Shown: in pieces, positions 44,684 through 46,840 of the stretch
Layout: every line of letters starts with the position of its first letter
Numbering within the stretch: the first letter of the stretch is position 1
Assembly: GCA_903927025.1 (NCBI GenBank)
Contig: CAIYLG010000052.1
Coordinates: 1-64,000, forward strand
Origin: an uncultured Armatimonadota bacterium
GTDB taxonomy: Bacteria; Armatimonadota; Fimbriimonadia; Fimbriimonadales; Fimbriimonadaceae
DNA: 64,000 nucleotides
Direction of reading: 5' to 3'
Translations under genes and position numbers: made by a program
Notes under the pieces: generated by a model
The model's input: only the letters and a program-made list of their open reading frames with translations
Told to the model about the DNA's origin: nothing
The model's database searches: none

Positions 44684-45037
44684 GGGGGCGAACGGGCTCG
44701 ACAGGGCTGGTTCGACTTTCGGTTGCGAGCCGAGGCGCCGTTGGCCTCGTAAAAAGCGGCAAAAACAGTAGATGCGAATAACAACTACGCCTACGCAGCT
44801 TAATTAACTGTGTGGTCCTCCACTTCCGAGCCGGTAGGAAGTGTCCAGGGCCTAATAAAATCCGGATCGTTGGGCAAGCTTCTGTTCGTAGCAAGCTCGA
44901 CTAGATAAATCGAACTGGATGACCGCCCAGGTGACCTCGACAGAGGGTGGCGTCGAGATAAAGTACAGAGGAGACGCTCGTGGTAATTGAAGGGCCGACA
45001 GTTTTGGAAGGGAGTTCAACTCTCCCCGCCTCCACCA
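44684..45037 (+). ncRNA. ssrA: tmRNA (ribosome rescue RNA)
   Basis: 354 nt. The 5' end GGGGGCGAACGGGCTCGACA and the 3' end CGCCTCCACCA are the conserved tRNA-like half-molecules; the acceptor stem pairs GGGGGCG (44684-44690) with CGCCTCC, and CCA is encoded. GGTTCGAC and AGTTCAACTCT (T-arm) are as expected. The tag frame reads from GCA 44759 to TAA 44801-44803 and encodes AKTVDANNNYAYAA, ending in the degradation signal YAYAA. It rescues stalled ribosomes with SmpB. Its last 24 bp plus one base recur at 46817-46840. Confidence 0.96.
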
Positions 45038-45038
45038 A
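45015..45038. repeat. Left 24-bp direct repeat (ssrA 3' end, attL-like)
   Basis: Covers the T-arm 3' half and acceptor end of ssrA through CCA plus one A. The identical 24 bases occur at 46817-46840 in the same orientation, while bases on either side differ. This is the standard footprint of tyrosine-integrase islands that insert into tmRNA genes. Confidence 0.85.
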
Positions 45039-45050
45039 AACTTTGAACCT

Positions 45051-45077
45051 AAAGCCAGCTAAAAGCTGGCTTTTTTC
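45051..45077 (+). terminator. ssrA terminator
   Basis: AAAGCCAGCT and AGCTGGCTTT form a 10-bp stem over AAA or TAAA, running into TTTTTTCTTTTG. It lies 13 bp after the mature tmRNA end. Confidence 0.85.
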
Positions 45078-45203
45078 TTTTGTTCGCCACTGATTCCGAT
45101 ATCCTTGCTATTTTGGAATTGTTCCTAGCCTGTTAGTAGCGAGGCTACCGATGCAAGGCGACATATACTAGAGATGGCACCTTTGCTTTAGTGCGCCTTC
45201 CTT

Positions 45204-46421
45204 TCAGTAAATCGTCTCTTCTTCTGATTCGAGGCCATTGACATGGTCGGCGGACAATTCTGAATCATCGAACATTCGGAAATAGGATTGGTGGAGGTAG
45301 ACCCGATTTCTTGACCTGCCCGTCATCTCTCTGAGGATATCGGCGTCAACCATTTGTGAAATAAGTCTATTCGCGGCATGAAAGCCCTTGCCGACGAGGT
45401 GCTGGGCTTGGGCGACATTGATATACGGATGTTGGAATAGCCCGTCGTGAAGAACCAGTCCGTCAGCGGTCATCCTTCCAAAGCTTGCTTGGATTCGCAC
45501 TCGTTGCTCTTCCCGCAGATTGACTATCCGCCTCGCGACCTCGGTTGCTTCATTGGCAACCACCGTGACTCCCCGCAGAAAAAACTTCAACCATCCCTCC
45601 CAGTCACCTTTGTCACGAACGGCTTGAAGGCGGTCATAGTATTCGAGCCGGTTGAGCTTGAAGTAGTGAGAGAGGTACAGCAACGGACGTTTAAGGACCG
45701 CGCGCTCGCATAGCATGAAAGTGATGAGCAACCTTCCAATTCTTCCATTCCCATCAAGGAAAGGGTGAATCGTTTCCAATTGAGCATGTGCCAGTCCAAC
45801 CTTGACCAAAATTGGCATCGGTCGTTCACTGTGCAGAAATTGCTCCCAGTCCCCGAGCGCCTGCTTCATATCGTCTGGTGCGGGTGGCACAAAGCGGGCC
45901 GTAGTAAGCGTGCAGCCCTGTGGCCCGATCCAGTTTTGGCTACGCCTGAATTCTCCAGGATTACGTTCTTGCCCCCGTGTGCCCTCCATAAGCCTCGCAT
46001 GAATCTCGCAGAGCATTCTGAGTGAGATGGGCAAATTTTGAAGTCTCTCCAATCCGTAGTTCATCGCGCCGACGTAATTGATAACCTCGGCAACATCGGT
46101 CGGCGTCTGAGGCTCAAATACCCTTGCCTCAAGTTCGAGCACATCGGCGAGGGACGCTTGAGTGCCTTCGATTTGAGAACTCAGCACCGCCTCCTTGCGG
46201 ACGTACATCATGACGAACAACTCGGGATTTGGTAAGGCTTCGGTAGAGCCATCGAGCCGCCCCAGCGCCCTATCTGCGCGAGAGAGCAAGTCCAACAGGT
46301 CGTCGTCATACTGTACGGGAGGGTTGGGTGGCAACGCGGCTGGCACGAAGGCTCGATAGCCCGTCGCCTGTTTGATGTAAACCCCCGATCTGGCCGATGT
46401 CTGTTGCACCCTGTCGATCAT
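45204..46421 (-). CDS. Fic-domain AMP-transferase with self-inhibitory helix
   Basis: 405 residues. N-terminal Fic_N domain with the inhibitory motif (S/T)xxxE(G/N) present as SSQIEG (81-86), the class II arrangement in which the helix blocks the active site in cis. Fic core motif HPFLDGNGRIGR at 219-230 has every catalytic residue (H219, D223, G224, N225, G226, R227, R230). The last about 100 residues (VRIQASFGRM, NVAQAQHLVGKGFHAANRLISQMVDADILRE) look like a winged-helix DNA-binding module. Fic enzymes transfer AMP to Tyr, Ser or Thr of target proteins. It is the only intact gene between the ssrA repeats; no antitoxin gene accompanies it, consistent with self-inhibition. Confidence 0.93.
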   Translation of the reverse strand: MIDRVQQTSARSGVYIKQATGYRAFVPAALPPNPPVQYDDDLLDLLSRADRALGRLDGSTEALPNPELFVMMYVRKEAVLSSQIEGTQASLADVLELEARVFEPQTPTDVAEVINYVGAMNYGLERLQNLPISLRMLCEIHARLMEGTRGQERNPGEFRRSQNWIGPQGCTLTTARFVPPAPDDMKQALGDWEQFLHSERPMPILVKVGLAHAQLETIHPFLDGNGRIGRLLITFMLCERAVLKRPLLYLSHYFKLNRLEYYDRLQAVRDKGDWEGWLKFFLRGVTVVANEATEVARRIVNLREEQRVRIQASFGRMTADGLVLHDGLFQHPYINVAQAQHLVGKGFHAANRLISQMVDADILREMTGRSRNRVYLHQSYFRMFDDSELSADHVNGLESEEETIY

Positions 46422-46816
46422 TATGACGACTGGAATGCGTCGTTATTGTCACTTCTCTCGTGTTTCGGCAATAAGAGCAGGCAATTGAGCGGTTTATGAT
46501 TCGTAGTCGATCATTGTCACGTGGTCTGGGTTCCCAATGTTTTTGTGCTTGCCTGTGCTGAAAGGCGTAGAAACGTGCCGCAGATAGTGCCGCAATCGGT
46601 TGACGTTCTTGGCTTGTTCAGCATTTGTTCTGGAGTCCTCACAACAATGGTTAAGAGACAAGGCAGTTGGCACGATTTGAGGCTCTGCCCAACAAAATCT
46701 TGTCACACTTGTTGACCTAAAATGCCACACTTCTTGGTTGCAATTTACGGTGGTCAGACACTCTTCGTGAGACGCTTTTGAACTTAAATGGACCTTCTCG
46801 TGAAATTATAGGTGTC
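46422..46816. other. A/T-richer non-genic part of the ssrA island
   Basis: About 400 bp upstream of the Fic gene that should include its promoter. No intact gene is seen. A 61-codon stop-to-stop frame on the minus strand (46702-46517) contains DCGTICGTFL near its end; this vaguely resembles C-terminal tails I associate with some integrases, but the match is too short to rely on. Confidence 0.4.
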
Positions 46817-46840
46817 TTCAACTCTCCCCGCCTCCACCAA
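46817..46840. repeat. Right 24-bp direct repeat (displaced ssrA 3' end, attR-like)
   Basis: Exact copy of 45015-45038, with different flanks (GTGTC before, CTCATG after). It is not followed by a terminator or a second tRNA-like half, so it is an isolated copy of the ssrA 3' end. Confidence 0.85.

Follow-up and report, generated by a model that had tools for sequence, protein, structure and literature searches.

A probable integrase-stripped island at the tmRNA gene of a Fimbriimonas genome, with a single SoFic-type gene as cargo

SoFic was reportedly described as a single-gene anti-phage system by Millman et al. in 2022. It is reported to be an abortive-infection system that consists of one protein and contains an autoinhibitory helix; its expression is toxic in E. 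coli, and in E. coli H397 the downstream gene encodes AS1, an antitoxin of 47 aa (PMC12249575). Among mobile elements, the closest described systems are the cis-mobilizable elements (CIMEs), defined in PMC5704250 after Pavlovic et al. (2004), and the islands of tRNA and tmRNA genes (tDNAs), for which crossover in the T-loop is a recognised subsite (PMC4383910).

The window, a stretch of 64,000 nucleotides from the genome of an uncultured Armatimonadota bacterium (G000), holds at its tmRNA gene what is probably a CIME-like ssrA island that has been stripped of its integrase and has kept a SoFic-type anti-phage gene for its usefulness. Comparison of sequences demonstrated the pair of att sites, a horizontal origin, a remnant of the integrase in a sister copy, and purifying selection on fic. 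The sister copy belongs to Fimbriimonas sp. MAG_BO249 (G012; Armatimonadota), of the same genus, and the genomes compared are drafts or MAGs. The features of the locus are the following:

44684-45037, plus strand: tmRNA gene (ssrA), the insertion target (ARAGORN; Rfam RF00023, 163.9 bits)
45015-45038, plus strand: attL, 24-bp repeat from the T-loop to the CCA of ssrA, with only two copies in the genome
45042-45053, plus strand: TTTGAACCTAAA, candidate motif of arm type or tDNA-trailer type, next to attL within the element
45051-45073, plus strand: terminator-like hairpin for ssrA, inside the element; the first 45 bases after ssrA are common to G012
45083-45199, no strand: stretch without a match, at the position of the broken integrase of G012
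45204-46421, minus strand: fic, 405-aa class II Fic protein of SoFic type (Pfam; PADLOC SoFic; alignment; structure model and fold search)
46422-46776, no strand: non-coding stretch upstream of fic, common to G012, presumed fic promoter region
46777-46788, plus strand: TTTGAACTTAAA, the motif for a second time, 28 bp short of attR
46817-46840, plus strand: attR, the other 24-bp copy, with host sequence again from 46841 on

An earlier note on this DNA, made from the letters alone, had described an exact 24-bp repeat at the tmRNA 3' end, in the same orientation and with unrelated flanks. Sequence search, ARAGORN and Rfam bore this out: TTCAACTCTCCCCGCCTCCACCAA is present without mismatch at 45015-45038 and 46817-46840, both on the plus strand, and the flanks are unrelated. 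The first copy starts at the first base of the 7-base T-loop (GGGAG/TTCAACT/CTCCC), which is where the identity begins, and ends with CCA plus one base. The chance of a 24-bp repeat within 3 kb is about 1e-11. When all 66 contigs of the genome (5.25 Mb, 98% complete) were searched with up to 3 mismatches, two copies were found, both at the ssrA site, and the reversed-pattern control gave 0 copies; an ordinary dispersed repeat, which the note had named as a refutation, was thereby ruled out. The single variable base of the T-loop is C in both window copies and T in both copies of G012 and of G001, another member of the genus. A 7-bp T-loop overlap required to match on both partners would explain this C/C versus T/T pattern, as far as these few genomes go.

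The repeats bound a segment of 1.80 kb, and ORF and Pfam analysis agreed with the earlier reading that fic is the sole intact gene between them. The note's further statements, that no integrase is left and that the ssrA terminator lies inside the element, also held, as the homologue search of the 1.8-kb segment was negative for an integrase and the terminator-like hairpin falls beyond attL. The 117 bp of 45083-45199 were considered as a concealed integrase remnant and gave no match, and a small gene between fic and attR was rejected because the reading frames of G012 differ. The interval 46422-46816 is 84% identical to G012, gaps included, and the fic promoter presumably lies within its first part. 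The GC content of the unit is 51%, versus 55% for the window. No conjugation or mobilisation gene was seen, and an integrase ancestor is indicated by the G012 remnant.

The predicted protein contains the Pfam domains Fic_N and Fic. The self-inhibitory SSQIEG helix and the full catalytic site claimed by the earlier note are both present (residues 81-86 and, for HPFLDGNGRIGR, residues 219-230), and in an alignment with 25 homologues the former is invariant and the latter nearly so. SSQIEG corresponds to the N-terminal (S/T)xxxE(G/N) helix and HPFLDGNGRIGR to HPFx(D/E)GN(G/K)R, which places the protein in class II. The PADLOC SoFic model matched it over its full length (407.5 bits, E 1e-122) and also matched all 25 aligned homologues; the NCBIfam SoFic equivalog scored 172 bits against a cut-off of 550, which counts against the favoured explanation. 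The AlphaFold model (mean pLDDT 86.8) showed the same fold as the SoFic crystal structures, with TM scores of 0.72-0.81 at about 24% identity to solved SoFic. No AS1-like antitoxin ORF was found downstream of fic. Relatives at 43-61% identity are scattered across many phyla, which fits frequent transfer. A phage or plasmid origin of the unit was considered and set aside: viral contigs contained no relatives of fic or of the G012 integrase, phages have distant Fic homologues only, and those of plasmids are at most 60% identical. By analogy with the SoFic family, from which its defence role is inferred, Fic most likely constitutes an abortive-infection system of one gene, maintained for the benefit that it confers.

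The ssrA-fic unit was found in 2 of the 20 genus genomes, G000 and G012, the latter having its own matched att pair with the second copy about 2.5 kb past the tmRNA. The two units are 92% identical from a point just beyond the fic stop codon as far as the end of attR, and the first 45 bases after ssrA align as well, while the upstream host DNA is 67-76% identical. Compared by codons, fic is 95% identical in nucleotides, 90% at third positions and 96-97% in protein, with dN of 0.016-0.018 and dS of 0.17-0.18; the resulting dN/dS of about 0.1 indicates that the gene is under purifying selection. At the host neighbours, third-position identity is 45% for xerC, 40% for the sigma factor gene and 36% for ispE; dS is about 2 for xerC, and for the other two it is saturated and not computable. 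This contrast supports horizontal acquisition of the unit independently of its flanks and rules out vertical inheritance of fic; the divergence equal to that of host genes that would have spoken against the earlier note was not seen, that of fic being far lower. The left junctions of the two units differ and are compatible with one or two integrase losses, which for this reason are inseparable.

Between ssrA and fic, G012 contains an ORF (L041 2650-3381) whose frame continues upstream beyond a single stop codon. In G001, ssrA is followed by an intact tyrosine integrase of 473 aa, to which this ORF is 32% identical (E 7e-16); the ORF stops shortly past the region LRLGLRPAEVFAL, which we take to be box I. 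G001 has an ssrA island of 35.7 kb with the same core at both ends, the intact integrase, HmaA, HmaB and HmaC. Among relatives the earlier note had foreseen both ssrA 3' regions with one att copy and larger inserts with an integrase, and both were found: most other genus members have a single copy, G001 has the large island, and in G012 a broken integrase lies between the copies. Relatives of the G012 integrase were limited to G001 and G025 among 291 genomes of the phylum, and none was found in the G000 genome. An intact parent with a complete integrase and fic at ssrA was not found in the genus or phylum genomes, which also counts against the favoured explanation. In G019, further att copies on other contigs suggest more insertions there. 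The G012 remnant, the G001 island and the additional copies of G019 identify ssrA as an island site in the genus, and the window unit is accordingly best read as a former island without its integrase.

Several other loci were recorded in the course of these comparisons. The G001 island (contig C19; L031 2562-17305, L093, L094 168) carries a complete set of the HmaABC defence system together with dynamin-like GTPase genes. On contig C15 of G019 (L098 124-1068 and 2953), an ssrA att copy lies near a ribosomal protein operon and beside an ORF that we took by eye to be RHS-like with a phospholipase-A2-like part; this copy probably marks the distal boundary of a further ssrA island. The fic of G004, 75% identical, is located elsewhere, and the ssrA of that genome has a single att copy. 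In G160 (L163 639-1923), a 68% identical fic follows tRNA-Pro(ggg) at a distance of 27 bp from its 3' end and has the convergent layout seen in the window; the contig has no second att copy. Two candidates were rejected: the second ssrA 3' end of G008 (C176:4387) lies within a second partial tmRNA and more likely represents another strain in the bin, and the fic near ssrA in G030 is 43-45% identical, a second att copy not being found.

Both ends of the window unit carry a 12-bp motif: TTTGAACCTAAA begins 3 bases after attL, and a second copy with one base changed lies before attR. The motif or a near form was found in 5 of 5 distal-att flanks examined, versus 0.0018 expected per 60 bp. There are 14 exact copies in the G000 genome, and genus-wide it is over-represented, with about 156 matches versus 13 for the reversed control, both being sums over the genus table. 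Among 18 tDNAs in 1.61 Mb, 4 of the 4 with the motif at their 3' end were occupied, versus 2 of the 14 others (Fisher p 0.005), on contigs picked for carrying the motif or an integrase and thus not a random sample. Of 43 copies inspected, 16 lay within a few bases of tDNA 3' ends; some were away from tDNAs and some directly before start codons, so that an integrase arm function is no more than a lead. An arm site specific to ssrA was rejected, as the motif is enriched genus-wide and occurs near many tDNAs but elsewhere too.

Tracing the copies of TTTGAACCTAAA led to further tDNA islands in G000. At tRNA-Arg(cct) (contig C2:48296-59551; L183 8297-19560), the gene is followed by four tandem copies of the tRNA 3' half, delimiting units of 1.38, 1.50, 3.29 and 5.01 kb; the cargo comprises a gene for a PIN protein, a pair resembling VapBC, two genes that belong to no family, and AbiE with others, and no integrase was found in the four units. 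Integrase-less units bounded by tDNA ends recur in this genome. Intact integrases are present in the islands at tRNA-Ala and tRNA-Thr; a 13.5-kb unit at tRNA-Pro(ggg) starts with an integrase N-terminus fused to a Replic_Relax domain and seems also to be broken. The fused protein, of 389 aa, occupies the integrase position (contig C16:20138-21307; L186 8139-9308), and the same island carries E1/E2/JAB-like defence genes. In G012, contig C25 (L240 12391-13892) has a tRNA-Pro unit of about 2.9 kb with an AbiE toxin-antitoxin pair and no integrase.

The course of events most consistent with these data is that a genomic island of the tyrosine-integrase type integrated at the T-loop of ssrA and that its integrase was later deleted, leaving a 1.8-kb attL-fic-attR unit as a CIME-like minimal island. 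Its sole cargo would be a SoFic-type anti-phage system whose own N-terminal helix keeps it inactive; on infection, Fic may AMPylate a cell target and growth would stop, an abortive infection, and the unit would have been retained because fic is useful. The earlier note had offered a tyrosine-integrase-type island reduced to fic, in one version the residue of a larger island, and the G012 integrase fragment together with the full G001 island makes this the best reading. The unit is probably unable to excise by itself and could be mobilisable on the arrival of a second island or of an integrase specific for ssrA. An unlikely alternative, raised in part by the earlier note as a satellite moved by an integrase elsewhere, is that attL-fic-attR is an active non-autonomous cassette or satellite moved by an integrase in trans, with the tRNA-Arg tandem units as further members. 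It would account for the integrase-less units, several in number and 1.4-5 kb in size, that occupy tDNAs of G000, the common motif at element ends and the occurrence of the ssrA-fic unit in two species; however, the broken integrase of the G012 copy points to decay of an autonomous island, G000 lacks a relative of that integrase, and the motif is not confined to elements. To a similarly small degree it is conceivable that the tDNAs of Fimbriimonas serve as docking sites for integrase-less toxin or defence cassettes of one or two genes with TTTGAACCTAAA ends, moved in trans by a few integrases, in an integron-cassette-like manner built on tRNA and tmRNA 3' ends.

It is less probable still that Fic is an addiction or stability module holding the island in place rather than a phage defence, although toxin-antitoxin genes (PIN/VapBC-like, AbiE) occur in other integrase-less units of G000 and expression of SoFic is toxic to E. 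coli (PMC12249575). The class II inhibitor resides in the same chain, so gene loss would remove toxin and inhibitor together, and with no separate AS1-like antitoxin downstream post-segregational killing is not expected. The earlier proposal of a toxin protecting the island from loss was not supported, since Fic matches the SoFic anti-phage family and its retention is accounted for by defence no less well than by addiction. An ordinary, vertically inherited fic-ssrA arrangement with a coincidental or dispersed repeat has nothing but proximity in its favour and is very improbable, given the presence of the unit in 2 of 20 genomes, third-position identities of 90% versus 36-45%, and a repeat that reaches from the T-loop start to one base past CCA and has no copies elsewhere. 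On the favoured reading, an integrase-stripped island, the element has shrunk to a very small useful form that consists of a pair of att sites and a probable defence gene, and a related species preserves a less reduced state. Programs that recognise islands by their integrase overlook units of this kind, and the number of mobile defence genes at tDNAs may therefore be underestimated. Whether such remnants are dead or still move in trans is made testable by the tRNA-Arg tandem units and the recurring end motif.

Compared with known systems, the unit resembles CIMEs as a decayed integrative element in which integration and transfer genes are lost, fic alone remaining, and attL and attR are kept as an exact 24-bp pair; it differs in being much smaller (1.8 kb, one gene). 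CIMEs are further defined by ICE or IME descent and by mobilisation in cis after accretion with an incoming element, which for this unit would be putative features. With the tDNA islands at tmRNA genes catalogued by Islander (PMC4383910) it shares a restored, intact target gene, a displaced 3' fragment in the same orientation as its far end, and the T-loop subsite; Islander, however, demands an integrase inside the island, which is intact in G001, broken in G012 and absent here. The tRNA-Arg array, with tandem units of variable size between tRNA 3'-end copies, is similar to the additive flexible genomic islands of Methylophilaceae (PMC10872708), from which the ssrA site differs in having a single unit and G000 in a cargo rich in toxin and defence genes; by analogy, the tandem arrays of G000 resemble both additive islands and CIME accretions. 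The protein, in turn, shares with SoFic the class II organisation, the N-terminal inhibitory helix, the full catalytic motif, a C-terminal domain, the fold and the PADLOC match, and differs in scoring below the NCBI equivalog cut-off and in having no AS1-like ORF downstream. The kind of element is already known, and what is new is a clean single-gene SoFic example at ssrA, accompanied by a less reduced sister copy.
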